From an uncultured Treponema sp. (GTDB lineage: Bacteria > Spirochaetota > Spirochaetia > Treponematales > Treponemataceae): a stretch of 64,000 bases of DNA. The position numbers and the translations under genes are program-made. The notes under the pieces are model-generated. The model saw only the letters and a program-made list of their open reading frames with translations, was not told the DNA's origin and made no database searches. The stretch lies in NCBI GenBank assembly GCA_946615905.1, contig CAMOIE010000002.1, positions 62,001 through 126,000 on the forward strand, given 5' to 3'. Numbering within the stretch: position 1 is the first letter of the stretch; each line of letters starts with the position of its first letter. This document shows, one piece after another, positions 2 through 59,347 of the stretch.

Positions 2-1972
2 CACTTCGTCGTATTCGAGGGCTTCAAGGGCAAAAAAGTCTACCTGAACGACTCCGCCATTGGCCGCCGAATCGTAGAGCCGGACGAATTCGACGAATCG
101 TTCACGGGCGTGGTCCTCGTGTTCCAAAAGGGCGCGGAATTCAAAAAGGGCGGGGAAAAGCCCAAAGTCTGGCCGCGCCTCAAAAAACGCCTCGGCGGTC
201 TCGGCTCGATTTTCACATTCCTGGGCTTTTTGAGCTTCCTCTATTTTATCCCCGGCTTCGTCTATCCGCTCTTCTCGCGCTTTTTCATCGACGAAATCCT
301 CATCAAAAACTCGATGAACCTTCTAAAACCGCTCCTTGTCGCGATGGCGGTCACCTGCGTAATCAGCACATTTCTGCAGGCAATCCAGAACACTGTCCTG
401 ATGCGCTTCCAGGCACGCTTGAGCCTTTCCTCCGCATCAAAGTTCATCGACCACATCTTCAAGATGCCGGTCCAGTTCTTCGTCCAGCGACTTCCGGGCG
501 AACTGTGCAACCGAATCTCCTCGTGCGACTCTATTTCCGCCCTCATTTCGGGGCAGCTCATCGGGGTCGTCATAAACCTCGTGAGCACAATTTTCTTCCT
601 TATATTGATGCTCCTGTACGACATTCCGCTCACGATCATTTCCGTCACGCTCACGGCGGTCGTCGTCGTCGTTTTTAGAATCACATCCGAGCGCGTCAAG
701 AACAAGTCCTTCAAAATCCAGATGGAAGACGGAAAGCTCAGCGGAATCACGATGTCGGGAATCGACATGATCGAGTCCCTCAAGGCCTCAGGCTCCGAGA
801 ACGACTTTTTCATGCAGTGGTCGGGCCAGCAGGCGAAGGTTCTTCAGGAAACCCAGCGGCTCGTCAGGACCAACACCGGAAATTCGATTATCCCGCAGCT
901 CATTTCTTCGGTTCAGGGCATCCTGATTCTCACGGTCGGCGCTCTGCGCGTCATGGACGGACACCTCACAATCGGAATGCTTATGGCCTTTCAGACGCTC
1001 CTCTCGCATTTTTCCGGCCCCATCAACTCGTTTTTGAGCCTCGGCTCTTCGCTCCTCTCCGCCAACGCCGACATGCAGCGAATCGACGACGTTATGGAGT
1101 ACCCGATTCCAAAGATTTTCAAAGAAGATTTTGAAAGTGAGGGGGTAGGGAGCGACGGCGAAGCCGGCAAAACTCACGAGGTGAGTTTTGAGCGAGTCTC
1201 GGAAAAATCTGTGATTTTTCCGCCCCCGCTCGGCTATCAACCGTTTAAAAAGCTCGAAGGCTACATCTCGCTAAAGGACATCGTGTTCGGCTATTCGCCG
1301 CTCGCAGAGCCGCTCATTAACGGACTGAACATCGAATTCACGCCCGGAAAGCGTGTCGCCCTCGTCGGTGCGACAGGCAGCGGCAAGTCAACAATCGGAA
1401 AACTCGTGAGCGCACTTTACGCACCGTGGAGTGGCGAAATCTTATTCGACGGAAAGTCGCTCTCTCAAATCGAAAAAAAGCAGTTCGCCGCCTCGGTCTC
1501 CGTCGTGAACCAGTCGATTTCGCTCTTTGAAGGCACTGTCAAGGACAACATCACGATGTGGGACAAGACTGTTCCCGAGGAAGTCTACATCCAGGCGGCG
1601 AAGGACGCGTGCATCCACGACGTAATCGCATCGCGCCCCAACGGCTACTACTCCAAAGTCGGCGAAGGCGGCCGCAATTTCTCAGGCGGCCAACGCCAAA
1701 GGCTCGAAATCGCCCGAGCCCTCGCCACAAACCCGCGCATAATCATCATGGACGAGGCGACCAGCGCGCTCGACGCAATCACCGAGCAGACCGTAGACCA
1801 AAACATCCGCCGCCGGGGCTGCACAAGCATCATCATCGCCCACCGCCTCTCCACAATCCGCGACTGCGACGAAATCATCGTCCTCGACCACGGCCAAATC
1901 GTCCAGCGCGGCACCCACAACGAGCTGATCGCGCAGGAGGGAACATACAAGGCGCTCATAGCGAGTATGTAG
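2..1972 (+). CDS. C39-peptidase-containing bacteriocin ABC transporter (NHLM/PCAT type), 5' end outside window
   Basis: Frame 2 is open from the window edge: HFVVFEGFKGKKVYLNDSAIGRR...FTGVVLVFQKG resembles the C-terminal part of a C39 peptidase, followed by TM domain and NBD (GATGSGKST Walker A, FSGGQRQRLEIARAL signature, IIIMDEATSALD Walker B). Confidence 0.9.
   Translation, partial: HFVVFEGFKGKKVYLNDSAIGRRIVEPDEFDESFTGVVLVFQKGAEFKKGGEKPKVWPRLKKRLGGLGSIFTFLGFLSFLYFIPGFVYPLFSRFFIDEILIKNSMNLLKPLLVAMAVTCVISTFLQAIQNTVLMRFQARLSLSSASKFIDHIFKMPVQFFVQRLPGELCNRISSCDSISALISGQLIGVVINLVSTIFFLILMLLYDIPLTIISVTLTAVVVVVFRITSERVKNKSFKIQMEDGKLSGITMSGIDMIESLKASGSENDFFMQWSGQQAKVLQETQRLVRTNTGNSIIPQLISSVQGILILTVGALRVMDGHLTIGMLMAFQTLLSHFSGPINSFLSLGSSLLSANADMQRIDDVMEYPIPKIFKEDFESEGVGSDGEAGKTHEVSFERVSEKSVIFPPPLGYQPFKKLEGYISLKDIVFGYSPLAEPLINGLNIEFTPGKRVALVGATGSGKSTIGKLVSALYAPWSGEILFDGKSLSQIEKKQFAASVSVVNQSISLFEGTVKDNITMWDKTVPEEVYIQAAKDACIHDVIASRPNGYYSKVGEGGRNFSGGQRQRLEIARALATNPRIIIMDEATSALDAITEQTVDQNIRRRGCTSIIIAHRLSTIRDCDEIIVLDHGQIVQRGTHNELIAQEGTYKALIASM
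1145..1222 (+). repeat. Palindromic repeat family S, copy A (in frame inside the ABC transporter gene)
   Basis: GTAGGGAGC...AAAACTCACGAGGTGAGTTTT...GAGTCTCGGAAAAATCTGTGATTTTTCCG; same block at 1969 and 15251. Confidence 0.85.
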
Positions 1973-2062: not shown

Positions 2063-4621
2063 ATGGAACACAGAATATACGAAATCGACAACACGAATTT
2101 TCTCACGCTTGACGGAAGCTGCACGACCATCAAGGTCTTGAAGGGGCACGCCTATCTTTTTATCGCGCCTGTCCTTGAGGGCGGAAAGATTGGCGCACGG
2201 CACGAAATCACGGACTACGAAGAGGGCGGGACGTTCCCGAACATTCCCAGCACCGACGAATACAAGGTGATTCTCACGGGAACAATCGGAACGAAGGTCG
2301 AGGCCCTTCCGTTCCCCGATTCCGACTACGAGGCGGTTCTTGAGGCGGCGAAGGAATTCATCATTTCAAAATTCGAGGCTGAGGAAGAAAAACTCGATGC
2401 CCGCTCGGTTCTCCAGCAGGAGCTTTCCGACGAGGCGTTCTCGCTCGCGCTCGAAAACATTGCTTCCGTTGTCAACCGAAAAAAGCGGCACAATCTGCTT
2501 TTTGAGTCGGAAGACTCGCCGTTGGTCAAGGTCTTCAAGGTCGTCGCGCAAAAGATGGGCGGAATGGCTGTCCATTCAGTTCCTGGGAAAAAATACGAGG
2601 CGAACAAGTCGGGAGTCCAGCGGCTTGCGAAGGACAGCACGATTCGCGTCCGCGAGGTCGTTTTGCGCGACAGGTGGCACAAGGAAGACAACGGACACCT
2701 GATCGCCTTCTACAAGCCCGATGGCGAAATCAATCTTTCTTCCGTTGATTCTGCCTTGGTTCCTGTCGCTCTCATAAAGAATCTTGAGCGGACGGGCTAT
2801 GTGATGTTCAATCCGCTCGACGGCTCGATGACTCCCGTCACGAAAAAGAACTTGGCTCAGATTCACCCGATGGCGTTTATGATGTACCGCTCGATGAACG
2901 AGGAAAAAATCAGCCTTAAGAGCGTCCTAAAATTCGTCTTTATGGACATCAAGGCGGACATCGCGCGCTTCGTGATCATCGGTCTGGTCTGCACGCTTAT
3001 CGGTCTTATCACGCCAGTCATCACGCGGAACTTCATCGACGAGGTGATTCCAGAGGCAGCGAAGTCGCAGGCGGTGCAGATTTGCGTTCTCGTCTTTTTC
3101 TGCAACATTTCCTCGATGGTCGGAAGCCTCGCCAAATATTTCGCGAACCTCCGAATGGAGACGAAGGCGGACACGGACTTGCAGGCGGCAATTATGGACA
3201 GGCTCTTGAAGCTTCCCGTCGATTTTTTCAAGAACTATTCCTCCGGCGACCTTGCCGCTCGAATGATGACGCTCAACCAAATCCGAAAGCAGATTTTCAG
3301 CATCGTCCTCTCGTGCTTTATGAATTTCATATTCAGCTTTGTCTATCTGATTCAGGAATTTAGATTCTGCGCGTATTTTGCCAAGTGGGGAATCCTTTTC
3401 TGCATCTTCCCGATTGTCATTTCCTGCATCATCTGCTTCATCACCTACAAATGGGAAAAAATGCTCGTCGAGTCGCAGGGAAAGATTCAGGGCATGCTCC
3501 TGCAGTTCCTGAACGGGGTCGAAAAAATCTCGAATTCGCACTCGGAGAAGCGGGTTTTTGCGCAGTGGTCGGGCGAGTACATTCGTCAGGTCAAAATCGG
3601 CTACAACCTGGGGCTGATCGGAATCATCTCCTCGCTCATCAACACGGTCTACCCGACGGTCGTTGGAATCATCTTCTATTATCTTTACGGTCGCGGAATG
3701 AGGCTTCAGGCAATCGAAGGGCTTACGACGGGTACGTTTATGGCCTTCTTGAACGCATATTCTTCGTTCCAGAGCGCGTTCTTGGGAATGGCGGGCAGCC
3801 TTCTTGAAATCCGCAACGTGATTCCGCTCACGAAGCGAATACAGCCGATTCTTGACGCGAAGCCCGAGGTCGAAACTTCTATGCCGCCGATTGACAAGCT
3901 CGACGGAAACATCGAAATCAGCCACCTGAACTTCCGCTATGCGCCGGACGCTCCTCTCGTCTTAAAAGACGTGAATATGCACATAAAGGCAGGCGAATTC
4001 GTGGCGGTGGTCGGAACTTCGGGAGCGGGAAAGTCCACTCTAATGCGGATGTTGCTCCGCTTTGAAAAGCCTGAGTCGGGAACGATTTTCTTCGACAGCC
4101 AGGACATTTCCGCCGTGGACATCGGCTCGCTGAGAAGGCAGATGGGCGTTGTGCTGCAGAACGACACAATCTTGCAGGGGACGATTTTGCAGAACATCAT
4201 CGGAAGCTCGGGACTGAAGGAGGCGGACGCGTGGGAGGCGGCGAGAAAGGTCGCCTTTGACAAGGACATCGAGGAGATGCCGATGGGAATGTTCACGATG
4301 ATTCCCGCCGGCGGAAGCACTCTTTCCGGCGGCCAGCTCCAGCGTCTCATCATTGCGCGGGCGATTATCCGAAATCCGAGCGTCCTGATTTTCGACGAGG
4401 CGACGAGCGCGCTAGACAATTTGACTCAAGCGACCGTCCGAGAGAGCCTCGACAACCTAAAAGTCACAAGAATCATCATCGCGCACAGGCTTTCCACGAT
4501 CATCAACGCCGACAGAATCTACGTGATGAAGGACGGCGAGGTAATCGAAACTGGAAACTACGACGAACTGATGGAAAAAGACGGCTATTTCGCCCAACTC
4601 GCGAAACGGCAGAATGTGTAG
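2063..4621 (+). CDS. NHLM-type bacteriocin system ABC transporter, permease/ATP-binding protein without C39 domain
   Basis: 852 aa; long N-terminal non-peptidase region, TM domain, NBD with GTSGAGKST, LSGGQLQRLIIARAI, LIFDEATSALD. Confidence 0.88.
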   Translation: MEHRIYEIDNTNFLTLDGSCTTIKVLKGHAYLFIAPVLEGGKIGARHEITDYEEGGTFPNIPSTDEYKVILTGTIGTKVEALPFPDSDYEAVLEAAKEFIISKFEAEEEKLDARSVLQQELSDEAFSLALENIASVVNRKKRHNLLFESEDSPLVKVFKVVAQKMGGMAVHSVPGKKYEANKSGVQRLAKDSTIRVREVVLRDRWHKEDNGHLIAFYKPDGEINLSSVDSALVPVALIKNLERTGYVMFNPLDGSMTPVTKKNLAQIHPMAFMMYRSMNEEKISLKSVLKFVFMDIKADIARFVIIGLVCTLIGLITPVITRNFIDEVIPEAAKSQAVQICVLVFFCNISSMVGSLAKYFANLRMETKADTDLQAAIMDRLLKLPVDFFKNYSSGDLAARMMTLNQIRKQIFSIVLSCFMNFIFSFVYLIQEFRFCAYFAKWGILFCIFPIVISCIICFITYKWEKMLVESQGKIQGMLLQFLNGVEKISNSHSEKRVFAQWSGEYIRQVKIGYNLGLIGIISSLINTVYPTVVGIIFYYLYGRGMRLQAIEGLTTGTFMAFLNAYSSFQSAFLGMAGSLLEIRNVIPLTKRIQPILDAKPEVETSMPPIDKLDGNIEISHLNFRYAPDAPLVLKDVNMHIKAGEFVAVVGTSGAGKSTLMRMLLRFEKPESGTIFFDSQDISAVDIGSLRRQMGVVLQNDTILQGTILQNIIGSSGLKEADAWEAARKVAFDKDIEEMPMGMFTMIPAGGSTLSGGQLQRLIIARAIIRNPSVLIFDEATSALDNLTQATVRESLDNLKVTRIIIAHRLSTIINADRIYVMKDGEVIETGNYDELMEKDGYFAQLAKRQNV

Positions 4622-4625
4622 GAAG

Positions 4626-4716
4626 CGGTTGAATCGGTGGTTGAGCCTGTCGAAACCACCGATTCCAGCGAAAGTCAGAAGTGGTTTCGATACGGCTTCG
4701 CCTACTCAACCACCGT
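4626..4716 (+). repeat. GGTGGTTGAGCCTGTCGAAACCACC-type palindromic intergenic repeat
   Basis: GGTGGTTGAGCCTGTCGAAACCACC followed by an inverted GTGGTTTCGATACGGC...CTCAACCACC; related segment at 17188-17256. Confidence 0.7.
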
Positions 4717-15250: not shown

Positions 15251-15328
15251 GTAGGGAGCCGGTCGCGAAGTGAAAAAACTCACGAGGTGAGTTTTTAGGC
15301 GAGTCTCGACAAAATCTGTGATTTTCCG
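15251..15328 (+). repeat. Palindromic repeat family S, copy C
   Basis: GTAGGGAGCCGGTCGCGAAGTGAAAAAACTCACGAGGTGAGTTTTTAGGCGAGTCTCGACAAAATCTGTGATTTTCC. Confidence 0.85.
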
Positions 15329-15340
15329 TTGGAGCCGACG

Positions 15341-15454
15341 CGGCAGGGATTGTAGGGGCGGCGGTAGCCGTTGCAGGTCGCACGCGACCTGCAATGAAGC
15401 GATAGCGGAACCCCGAAAAGCCCGACCCGCCGACAGGCGGGTGCCGCCCAAAAA
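15341..15454 (+). repeat. Variable-stem intergenic repeat family V, copy 1
   Basis: AGGGATTGTAGGGGCGG...GAAGCGATAGCGGAACCCCGAAAAGCCCG-hairpin-GCCCAAAAA; ends at the stop codon of the VOC gene. Confidence 0.75.
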
Positions 15455-17109: not shown

Positions 17110-17405
17110 ATTAAATCGGTACACAAAAGGTTTTTGCAGAAGTAGTTATAAAATGACGTGTTACTGAAAGTATGATTTTGGAAAAATTCGGTGATTGAGC
17201 CTGTCGAAATCACCAGTTTTGCGGTATTTTCGATAAACTCAACCACCGCAAAATCCTTGTCATCAGACTTTTGATAACACACCATAAAATGAACATCGGT
17301 TCTTGAATGAGGGCTGCCGGTTTTTGGGAAAATATAATTCTTATATTGACAATCATCTATGTAAGGCGTATATTACATATAGATATTTATCAATACGAGG
17401 TGCTT

Positions 17406-19687: not shown

Positions 19688-19809
19688 GCGCAAGGGATTG
19701 GAGCTGCACCGAAGGTGGCCACCGCAGGAAGCGTAGCGGACGAGGAGGCTGGAGCGACAGCGGAACAGCGGAAAGCCCGGTGGCCGCTTGCGGCCATGCG
19801 CCCAAAAAT
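19688..19809 (+). repeat. Variable-stem intergenic repeat family V, copy 2
   Basis: AAGGGATTGGAGC...AGCGACAGCGGAACAGCGGAAAGCCCGGTGGCCGCTTGCGGCCATGCGCCCAAAAA; starts just after the permease stop. Confidence 0.75.
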
Positions 19810-19961
19810 ATAAAAAAATCAAAAATAATCAAAATTTTTTCGTATTCAATTGCAGAAAATGCATTATCACCGCCTATATTATATATAAGGAGATGATATG
19901 AAAATTGAAGCAAAAAAAATGCGAGAATCAGATTGAGTTGAAGATTCCATAAGATGAAGGA

Positions 19962-20330: not shown

Positions 20331-20547
20331 GGAGGTTGAAGACTCCTAACTGACAGACAAGAATACTGTGTCTTATAAGGAGCAGTATAAGACAATACGG
20401 CTTTTGTGCTATTTTGTTGTTATAAAGGGATTTAGCTCTGTTTATCATGCGGATTTATGCTGACAAAGATTTTAATTTTAATAATTTTACAAGGAATGGT
20501 ATAATAGGAGTTATTGTGACACCGCCTATGCGGCGACACTTTGAAAT

Positions 20548-21012
20548 ATGAATGGAAAAATAGAAATAAAGACAACTACAAAAGAAGATATTGAAACATT
20601 AATGAATATCCGCCTTGAAATGCTAAGAATTGTAAACTGCATGAAGGATGGTGAAAACTTTTCAGAAGAACTAATTCAATCAGCAAGAAAATATTTTTTG
20701 AACGGAGAGCAAACAACCGTTTTAGCCTTAGATAATGAGAAAGCAATTGGCTGTGCTTCAATTTCATACATTACAATTATGCCGACTTTTGACCATCCAA
20801 ATGGAAAACGTGCACATCTGATGAATGTCTATACAAATAAAGCATACCGCAAGCGAGGAATCGCTACGAAAATGATTCAAATTCTAATCGACGAAGCAAA
20901 AAAGAAGGGGTGTACAGAAATCACCCTTGATGCAACAGATATGGGGAGACCTCTTTATAAAAAAGTTGGGTTTTCAGAAAACCGCGAGGGGATGAATCTC
21001 CAATTAAGATAA
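20548..21012 (+). CDS. GNAT family N-acetyltransferase
   Basis: AHLMNVYTNKAYRKRGIATKMIQILIDEAKKKGCTEITLDATDMGRPLYKKVGF. Confidence 0.88.
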   Translation: MNGKIEIKTTTKEDIETLMNIRLEMLRIVNCMKDGENFSEELIQSARKYFLNGEQTTVLALDNEKAIGCASISYITIMPTFDHPNGKRAHLMNVYTNKAYRKRGIATKMIQILIDEAKKKGCTEITLDATDMGRPLYKKVGFSENREGMNLQLR

Positions 21013-21627: not shown

Positions 21628-21696
21628 TGCGCGAGAGCGCACAGGAAAATAATTACCTTGAACGCAAACGGCACGCAGGTGACGTATGCGTAAACA

Positions 21697-21831
21697 CATA
21701 TAACTCAGTTTTCGTGCGGACATTTTGCTTTGTCACGTTTTTTGCTAGTCGTTTCGCTCCTCCACGCAAAAACCGCACCAATTTTGCCTGAGGGCAAAAC
21801 CGCAAAACGCAGCACAAAACAACGTTATATG
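21697..21831 (+). other. attC-like integron recombination site
   Basis: CATATAACTCAGTTTTCGTGC...GCAGCACAAAACAACGTTATATG, imperfect palindrome with matching ends between two cassette-like genes. Confidence 0.65.
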
Positions 21832-21876
21832 GATGTCGCCTATGCGGCGACACGAAAAAAAATGAGGAAGAAGTAA

Positions 21877-22740
21877 ATGAAAAAGTTCATTATTTTTATA
21901 TTAATATTACTTAGCACATTAAGCACATATGCACGAGACTTTCAAAAAGAATTTGTTGATTCTTTCAAGAAATCAGATTATGAAACAGTAAAAAGCATTC
22001 TTACAGATTGGGAAAAAGAAGATTCTAAAAATCCGGAAATGATGATTGCCTGGTTTAATTATTATTTGAACAGAAGCGCAGTAGAACATCCAACCATGGG
22101 AAAAATGAAAGACGGCCGTTACGGAATGTATTCGTGGATGGAATACAGTCAAGATGATGTTAAAACCGGGATTTCATATCTTGACAAAGCATTAAAATCC
22201 TATCCGAATAGACTTGATATTCACTTAGGAAAAGCCTCTTCTTTAATTAAATCTGAAAATTATAAACAAGCCGTTGATTCAATTATAAATACAATAAAAA
22301 TTTCAAAAAAGAATAAAAACAAATGGTTTTGGACAAACAATCAATTCATGGGTGAAGACGGTAAAAATGTTTTACTTTCAAGTTTACAAGATTATTGTCA
22401 ACAGATTTTTTATGATTTCGACACAACTAAAGATTCATATAAACTTTTGGTTGAAACAATAAATAAAGAGTATCCTAATGAAATAGTATTTTTAAACTAT
22501 GAAAGCCTATATTATTCACGCACCGGTGATAATAAAAAAGCCATTGAAATCCTAAAAAAAGCTTATGAACTGGATAAAACCGATTACATTATCATTGGAA
22601 ATATTGCTTATGATTATGAACTTATGGAAAATTATCAAGAAGCAAAACAATGGTATGAAATGCTTTTAGAAATAGATAATCCAGAAGCAAAAGAATACGG
22701 ACAGCGTGGTCTTGATATAATTAAAGATAAATTAAAATAA
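21877..22740 (+). CDS. TPR-containing exported protein (cassette-like)
   Basis: Signal peptide; SRTGDNKKAIEILKKAYELDKTDYIIIGNIAYDYELMENYQEAKQWYEMLL. Confidence 0.7.
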   Translation: MKKFIIFILILLSTLSTYARDFQKEFVDSFKKSDYETVKSILTDWEKEDSKNPEMMIAWFNYYLNRSAVEHPTMGKMKDGRYGMYSWMEYSQDDVKTGISYLDKALKSYPNRLDIHLGKASSLIKSENYKQAVDSIINTIKISKKNKNKWFWTNNQFMGEDGKNVLLSSLQDYCQQIFYDFDTTKDSYKLLVETINKEYPNEIVFLNYESLYYSRTGDNKKAIEILKKAYELDKTDYIIIGNIAYDYELMENYQEAKQWYEMLLEIDNPEAKEYGQRGLDIIKDKLK

Positions 22741-22742
22741 CT

Positions 22743-22840
22743 CATATAACTCAGTTTTCGTGCGGACACGCCCCGCCGTGAGCGGCGGCCGGCTATGCGC
22801 ACCTGCTCTTGACGGAGAAGAAACTTCAGAAAGTTTAAAC
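22743..22840 (+). other. Partial attC-like site (left half)
   Basis: CATATAACTCAGTTTTCGTGCGGACA repeats 21697 left half exactly; no matching GTTATATG right half seen. Confidence 0.5.
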
Positions 22841-45091: not shown

Positions 45092-45208
45092 GCGGTAGGG
45101 ATAGTAGTGGCGGACGAAAGTCCGTTCTCGGACAGGATGTCCGCGAATGAAGCGATAGCGGAACCACGGATAGCCCGACGGCGGCTTGCCGCCGGACCGC
45201 CCGAATTC
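45092..45208 (+). repeat. Variable-stem intergenic repeat family V, copy 4
   Basis: TAGGGATAGTAGTGGCGGACGAAAGTCCGTTC...GAAGCGATAGCGGAACCACGGATAGCCCGACGGCGGCTTGCCGCCGGACCGCCCGAA. Confidence 0.75.
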
Positions 45209-45209
45209 T

Positions 45210-46628
45210 TTACTCAGCCTTGTACCAGTCGATTTTTCGGGTGATGAACATCAGGGCGACTATCACGAGGAAAAGGCCCACGCTTCCGATTAAGAGAGCG
45301 TAGTCGTCGGCCTGTAAAGTACCGAACAAAAAGACGTAGGAGACAAACTGAATGCCGGAAAGCATGGTGCCCCAGTGTATCTTTTTAAAAATCGCAGACG
45401 CGTAAAAGAGAGTCGAGGCGCAGACTGCCAGCGCGGAAATATAGTAGCTCAGGTTAAAATCCAGGTGCTCGGAAATTGAAAGCAGCAAGAGGTAGAACAT
45501 GACGTCCGCAACTCCAATCAGCGCATACTGTATCGGGTGGATGTTGGCTCCGGCAAAAATCTCACAGATAAAAATCGCAAGGAATGGAACGAGCAAAAAG
45601 AGGAGCGCGTATTTTATGCTGCGGATTGTCTTTTGGTATGTGTCCACTGGTGTGACCAGGGTGGTGACGATTTTTTCTCCGCCTGAGATTTTTGAGCCGT
45701 TTTCTGATTCCCACATTTTGGGGAAAACGGTCGTAAGGCCAGCGACATTCCATTTTGCAAAAAAGCCGTCTTTTGTAATCTCGCGCTCGGTGGGAAGCCA
45801 GCCGCCGCTAAAGCCGGGGTTCTTCCAGTCGGACCGGACGGAAAAATCGCAGTTTGTGCCAATCGGCTGGAAAATCAGTTTTTCTCCGCCCTGGATTTTA
45901 AATTCGCTTTTGAGAGAGAATCCTTCAAAAATGAATTTTTCAGGCAGCGTGTAATAAACGCTTTCTTCAAATGGAGAGACAGAATTGTATTCGGTCAATG
46001 AGTCTGAAAGTTCAAGCCCTGCGACCTTTATCTTTGGAAGTTCCGCAAGGATTTTTGTCTTGGAAAGGCCGAGGATTAGCACTGCGTTCTTTGTGTCCAG
46101 AGTTTCGCGTAAGGAGGTGAACTGCTGGTATTTGACAGGCTCAAATTTAGCCTCGATTGTCACATCGCTTGTAAAGACCGGCACAGAATAGATGCCGCGA
46201 GTAAGAGTATATGGAAGGATTTTTGAATCGAGCGAGAAGTTTTCTGGCCGGACAAAAATGTATTTTGTGCGGCTGTATTTTCGCTCAATGCCTTTTGCGT
46301 CAGTCTCAGAAAAATGCTCTGTATATGGAAGCATTACGAGAAGCCCCGAAATCTCCGGGTTCCCGCCCAAAGGCTCCAAAATGGATTCCACGGCCTCTTC
46401 CTGATAAGTTTTTCTGTCGTAGATAATCGACTTTATCAGAGAAAGAGGAATCATGAACAAAAGCAGCATTGCGACTATTATGAGAGGCTTTGTCCCTCGT
46501 CTTTTTAAAATGCCAGAAAAGCCCCTTGTGCCAGAATTGTCAGAGGCGTTTTTTGAGGCGATCTGTTTTGCTGAATTCTCATTTTCCATAGAAATAATTT
46601 TAACATGGAGCAATGCTGTTTTCAACAA
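45210..46628 (-). CDS. creD: CreD-like inner membrane protein
   Basis: LIIVAMLLLFMIPLSLIKSIIYDRKTYQEEAVESI...YALIGVADVMFYLLLLSISEHLDFNLSYYISALAVCASTLFYASAIFK...LQADDYALLIGSVGLFLVIVALMFITRKIDWY. Confidence 0.9.
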   Translation of the reverse strand: MLKTALLHVKIISMENENSAKQIASKNASDNSGTRGFSGILKRRGTKPLIIVAMLLLFMIPLSLIKSIIYDRKTYQEEAVESILEPLGGNPEISGLLVMLPYTEHFSETDAKGIERKYSRTKYIFVRPENFSLDSKILPYTLTRGIYSVPVFTSDVTIEAKFEPVKYQQFTSLRETLDTKNAVLILGLSKTKILAELPKIKVAGLELSDSLTEYNSVSPFEESVYYTLPEKFIFEGFSLKSEFKIQGGEKLIFQPIGTNCDFSVRSDWKNPGFSGGWLPTEREITKDGFFAKWNVAGLTTVFPKMWESENGSKISGGEKIVTTLVTPVDTYQKTIRSIKYALLFLLVPFLAIFICEIFAGANIHPIQYALIGVADVMFYLLLLSISEHLDFNLSYYISALAVCASTLFYASAIFKKIHWGTMLSGIQFVSYVFLFGTLQADDYALLIGSVGLFLVIVALMFITRKIDWYKAE

Positions 46629-59149: not shown

Positions 59150-59270
59150 GTTAGGGATTGTAAGGGCGGCACGAAGTGCCGTTCCGGAGCGAAGCGGAGA
59201 AATGGAGCGCGGTTAGCGCGGAACCCTGAAAAGCCCGGCGTCGCGAAAGCGGCGAACGCCCAGAAAAATA
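59150..59270 (+). repeat. Variable-stem intergenic repeat family V, copy 5
   Basis: TTAGGGATTGTAAGGGCGGCACGAAGTGCCGTTCCGGAGCGAAGCGGAGAAATGGAGCGCGGTTAGCGCGGAACCCTGAAAAGCCCGGCGTCGCGAAAGCGGCGAACGCCCAGAAAAA. Confidence 0.75.
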
Positions 59271-59347
59271 AAAATGCCACGCAGTGTCACCGGAACCGCA
59301 AATTCCGTGCTATAATCAAGACATCTTTTTCAAAAACGAGGCACGAG

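Follow-up and report, generated by a model that had tools for sequence, protein, structure and literature searches.

Protein-coding palindromes are best known from the intracellular bacteria Rickettsia and Wolbachia. The palindromic elements of Rickettsia (RPEs) are dispersed hairpin-forming repeats that occur in intergenic DNA and in frame within unrelated conserved protein genes, and coding palindromic repeats have also been found in Wolbachia (PMC10969869, PMC2229807). RPEs span 105-146 bp and carry 12-bp terminal inverted repeats (PMC2229807), they have been described as losing their repeat identity over time (PMC6649704), and an RPE-bearing gmk gene was demonstrated to yield a translated, active product (PMC2229807, PMC10969869). 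For other prokaryotes, a 2024 review considered a similar mechanism of protein shaping only "conceivable" (PMC10969869). Two further groups of repeats are related in kind: GTAG REPs, which are palindromic, bear a GTAG tag at their 5' end and are sometimes located inside genes, with in-frame cases in other bacteria (PMC3733652), and MITEs such as ERIC, YPAL and Correia/NEMIS, which are small, non-autonomous and structured and give rise to occasional in-frame fusions (PMC2229807).

Here we examine S, a repeat of gut Treponema represented in a window of 64,000 nucleotides (the whole stretch of DNA analysed; contig CAMOIE010000002.1, positions 62,001 to 126,000) from a rumen species. We found no account of S in Treponema in the open literature, which is not proof of absence. 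Like RPEs, S resides both in intergenic DNA and in frame in many unrelated protein genes (about 17 families). It differs from them in its size (~75-90 bp) and its architecture, three separate hairpins and a closing helix of 4-6 pairs instead of 12-bp terminal inverted repeats; in its occurrence in another phylum (Spirochaetota) and a free-living gut host; and in its stems, which remain perfect although entire stems are exchanged, while RPEs lose repeat identity. On account of size, end structure and host, S is not an RPE. The first-pass annotation of the window had been reminded of the Rickettsia elements, a parallel that is borne out as to how the repeat works but does not extend to family membership, S being, by these criteria, a distinct family in Spirochaetota. 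S resembles MITEs in being small, non-autonomous, structured and found in frame in proteins, but it has no terminal inverted repeats beyond the 4-6 bp closing helix and no recognised target duplication. The principle itself has precedents, REPs in frame having been found in other bacteria (PMC3733652); what is new in S is the family, the phylum, the scale and the behaviour of the stems, and it provides an example spanning many genes in a genus that is free-living in the gut.

A covariance model of S, derived from 37 copies from across the genus, matched the window at exactly three places, all on the forward strand (1145-1230, 1969-2056 and 15251-15336; E 3e-17 to 1e-14). The hairpin AAAACTCACGAGGTGAGTTTT was found as exact matches at 1169, 1995 and 15275, against a chance expectation of 0 (100 shuffles). 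The first copy is read in frame over 26 codons without a stop (VGSDGEAGKTHEVSFERVSEKSVIFP, 1145-1222) inside a C39 ABC transporter. The second lies at the stop codon of the same gene, its TAG (1970-1972) being the transporter stop, and homologues terminate at the same residue; the third adjoins a palindromic repeat of another family, family 3. The in-frame reading and the two further locations, all inferred beforehand from the letters alone, are thus confirmed. Both adjacent hairpins that had been named in the coding copy are real, namely hairpin 2, CAAAACTCAC-GAG-GTGAGTTTTG (1168-1190), and hairpin 3, CGGAAAAATC-TGT-GATTTTTCCG (1200-1222), each supported by the fold and by pairing across 62 copies, but the total is three, as hairpin 1, CGGC-GAA-GCCG (1156-1166; from the fold, with a stem that varies among copies), precedes them. 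The description of S as a dispersed repeat also needs qualification: the copies exist, but they are alike in structure rather than in plain sequence, and hairpins 1 and 3 of the copy at 1969 have other stems. The general order of the element is (G/A)TAGGGAGC, hairpin 1, hairpin 2, (T)AGGCGAGTCTC, hairpin 3 and GC, with (G/A/C)TAG at the 5' start of most copies and GAAG or GCAG in others. The stems of all three hairpins are variable, while the loop of hairpin 2 is mostly GAG and that of hairpin 3 is C-TGT-G, and a short closing helix of 4-6 pairs, GGGAGC/GCGAGTCTC, can enclose the first two hairpins.

The host gene (2-1972, forward strand, its 5' end lying before the window) encodes a peptidase/permease/ATPase of NHLP/NHLM bacteriocin export (NHLM_micro_ABC1; TIGR03796, E 1e-249) with the Pfam domains C39, ABC_membrane and ABC_tran, and is followed by its operon partner, an NHLM_micro_ABC2 permease/ATPase identified by profile match (2063-4621, forward strand). 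Residues ~382-407 of the window ORF correspond to the insert, which is flanked by ABC_membrane (79-340) and ABC_tran (440-588) and hence occupies the linker between the transmembrane domain (TMD) and the nucleotide-binding domain (NBD), where the first-pass annotation had placed it. The frame GVGSDGEAGKTHEVSFERVSEKSVIFP is unbroken in an ORF of 752 codons from stop to stop (L119), with 477 codons before S and 249 after, and its product shows the C39 motif together with the Walker A, Walker B and signature motifs. An insertion implied that the segment would be absent in relatives, and orthologues with the same peptide would have refuted it; none of the 18 aligned homologues (17 genus transporters at 84-41% identity and one at 30%) contains the segment, and the peptide is found again only in genes that are not orthologues, e.g. 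that of a DUF554 protein, as a mobile insert predicts. The notion that this transporter subfamily has long possessed the segment, with no insertion at all, can scarcely be maintained: the linker varies in length and the segment occurs in a single species, so that the order of events is unreadable from close strains, but near-identical DNA is found in unrelated genes and also between genes of the own genome, and the absence from all relatives already contradicts it. The closest copy in the own genome, which is intergenic (C5:1899-1986), is identical to the window insert except for the loop of hairpin 1. The empty sites found were partial at best, and none at the transporter locus is nearly identical, so no target duplication was recognised for S. 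Nor can exact borders be read from orthologues, because the linker of the nearest transporter (84% identity) is too diverged and the radical-SAM pair described below is nested with another repeat. One transporter homologue (L121, G016:C44) carries a different in-frame palindromic repeat in the same TMD-NBD linker, GGGGAAAGCCTTCCCC...CTTCTGCGGGGGAGAGCCCCCGCAACGCCCC. This repeat belongs to a family referred to as family 2 and encodes GKAFPC..ATPSAGESPRNAP; the family 2 stem CTGCGGGG..CCCCCGCAACGCCCC is a frequent landing site of S, and the L121 motif also flanks several S copies.

Coding insertions, whose genome-wide count had been suggested at the outset, number one in the own genome with long flanking ORFs and extend genus-wide to about 17 protein families, i.e. 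the window transporter and about 16 others. In a CydCD-type ABC transporter S is again situated between TMD and NBD, in MnmE between the G4 and G5 motifs, in RecG immediately ahead of Walker A, and in CarB and a radical-SAM protein at two sites each. It is also in frame in CobB, MurE, an ABC-CobQ fusion, DUF554, MurI, UvrC, EttA/Uup, glutamate synthase (GltB) and a TonB receptor, and in an MptE-like protein (L277, on contig G174:C1, taken to be Treponema ruminis RU1; peptide region VGSDGGAGKTCETGFERVSAKAVPEP). All these insertions have recognisable domains around them. A copy in a possible N-terminal extension of TrmB (L045) and one in a PanC-like protein (L289) were not counted as firm internal insertions, S being near an uncertain start. 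Most gene-level assignments are based on domain profiles, and only the transporter and the radical-SAM protein were compared directly with homologues; among those of the radical-SAM protein, the position of S differs, and where one homologue has S the other has none. Both orientations relative to the gene occur, and MurE and CobB have each been invaded both ways in different genomes. Read sense, S yields the peptide VGSDGEAGKTHEVSFERVS common to the window transporter and DUF554; read antisense, it yields AVQAQPSPRLAQNSPREFC, common to the radical-SAM, MurE and ABC-CobQ proteins. The last of these (L115; NZ_JAFRNB010000100.1, Treponema sp. RGIG2619) combines an ABC ATPase and CobQ in one frame of 897 codons, joined through S and a neighbouring repeat, possibly a gene fusion made by the repeats. 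One radical-SAM protein (L218, G113:C11) contains, apart from S, RHPELVSGS elsewhere in its sequence, which looks like a further palindrome-encoded insertion.

Among the in-gene copies with at least 100 open codons on both sides, 9/9 were in frame and open. Of the copies that were out of frame, or in the same frame with a stop, those inspected (L015 and the window copy at 1969) proved to lie between genes and not inside them. An ORF-based census favours in-frame cases. These data bear on whether the insert might be spliced from the mRNA or bypassed by the ribosome, leaving the protein unchanged, an idea suggested by the stable hairpins, by insertion in conserved enzymes and by palindromes in Magnusiomyces mitochondria, for which such a case has been reported (cited in PMC6649704). 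Skipping would not need the frame to be kept, and the nine copies, all in frame and without stops, argue against it; the UvrC, GltB, CarB, RecG and MnmE copies are open too, although open frames were what the census sought. We regard splicing or bypass as very improbable.

At least 38 copies of S (E<0.01) were detected in the own genome, a lower bound given that 150 of 957 candidates were scored, and for most of them no long open frame runs through the copy, which indicates that S resides in intergenic DNA as well. Across the genus, 79 of 146 genomes harbour S (E<=1e-4), several with at least 28 matches. A pattern with 20 fixed bases, scanned over 85,462 species, retrieved 77 stretches, all in records of Treponema, Treponemataceae, Spirochaetaceae or Spirochaetales, and none in Rickettsia. 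Treponema ruminis RU1 is among the genomes matched; as this is a complete, named genome, translation of the insert and its tolerance by enzymes are testable there. Tandem and nested copies exist, and copies were also found in the loops of other palindromes.

The stems vary strongly among copies but keep their pairing. In an alignment of 62 copies, 44 of them from own-genome loci, 98.9% of cells were paired in hairpin 2, with two-sided changes at 8/10 pairs, and 84% in hairpin 3, with two-sided changes at 8/9 pairs; in the closing helix, the two pairs adjoining the hairpins change jointly (GC/GC, AC/GT, GT/AC). Cells with a double change numbered 275, whereas shuffles gave 81 and slid controls no more than 70. 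These counts lean towards structure because the alignment was fitted to it, but an earlier MAFFT alignment of 37 copies agrees (106 double-change cells vs 36). Stem differences between copies were two-sided in 9033 cases and one-sided in 540 (17:1), and G-U accounted for ~2% of pairs. Passage through G-U is more frequent in RNA stems under selection. We infer that the stem pattern reflects maintenance of a DNA palindrome, via template-switch correction or stem replacement. Such co-variation inside one genome amounts to a natural experiment, in which palindromes stay perfect while their sequence changes.

The paired changes are strong enough to raise another scenario, in which S is a structured RNA element (an attenuator, processing site or riboregulator) kept for its function and the coding copies are incidental; the conserved junction GGGAGC..GCGAGTCTC and the C-UGU-G loop would be in keeping with it. 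The rarity of G-U and the 17:1 two-sided excess nevertheless fit maintenance of the DNA palindrome or replacement of its stems better than RNA compensation via G-U, coding copies run both sense and antisense to their genes, and the copies adjoin unrelated genes. Rfam covariance models gave no relevant match for 12 S loci at E up to 5, only one weak chance match. An RNA function as the reason for the maintenance of S accordingly appears unlikely.

We favour instead the interpretation that S is a non-autonomous mobile repeat of Treponema, retained in genes as an in-frame translated linker, and that the window copy is such an insertion; we assign it a probability of roughly 0.86, in the absence of transcript, peptide or activity data. 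The repeat family, its absence from homologues, the retention of frame, the recurrence in unrelated proteins in both orientations and the paired stem changes are all observed, as are insertion and spread across genes: S has spread, given its many sites, its near-identical copies and its insertions in loops of other palindromes. That the extended protein is made and functional is inferred, and so is copying via a single strand that folds and is recognised by an enzyme yet to be identified. In the mechanism we propose, S would spread by copying itself, frequently landing in intergenic junctions or within the loop of another palindrome; in genes, selection would retain only in-frame, open insertions in tolerant inter-domain linkers or surface loops, where S would be translated as a linker extension of ~20-27 residues.

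No mobilising enzyme was identified for S. Most copies begin with (G/A)TAG, the sequence that marks GTAG REPs (PMC3733652), and S might on that basis be a REP of this type mobilised by a resident RAYT/Y1 transposase. S shares with GTAG/CGTC REPs the palindromic structure, the occasional presence in genes (PMC3733652) and, though not in every copy, the (G/A)TAG 5' end, but those are single hairpins of 20-40 bp, whereas S has three over ~80 nt and no Y1 transposase link. Y1_Tnp had 0 matches in the own genome, and the 42 of 146 genus genomes possessing a Y1 transposase do not coincide with the S-rich ones, some of which lack it (G000, G020, G074, G109, G113, G135) while others have it (G061, G107, G116, G148). 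Y1_Tnp/RAYT was consequently not retained as the mobiliser, a resident Y1/RAYT transposase is not required for S, and we hold its assignment to GTAG-type REPs to be improbable.

As a more tentative extension, on which we would not insist, gut Treponema may possess an entire repertoire of mobile repeats with several hairpins and variable stems (S, family 2 and family 3). These would nest in one another and time and again endow housekeeping enzymes with translated linkers, and their stems would be rewritten as perfect Watson-Crick pairs, e.g. by template-switch correction. They might then make up a class of their own among palindromes that remodel proteins, transposing by a route that does not depend on any known transposase.

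Several other repeats were recorded in the window. Family 3 is a multi-hairpin repeat present at 15340-15450, 19700-19810, 45100-45210 and 59160-59280, the first directly behind the S copy at 15251; its joints are conserved (GGAGCG..GCGGAACC..GAAAAGCCCG..GCCC) and its stems differ freely. The palindrome GGTGGTTGAGCCTGTCGAAACCACC occurs at 4634-4660 and 17188-17214, and elsewhere in the genome S is inserted in the middle of it (L169, L172, L173). Finally, paired intergenic repeats, GTTAT..GCCTATGCGGCGACA and AACWCATATAACTCAGTTTTCGTGCGGACA, flank small genes (20510-20551, 21824-21865, 21693-21722 and 22739-22768) and are reminiscent of integron attC sites.
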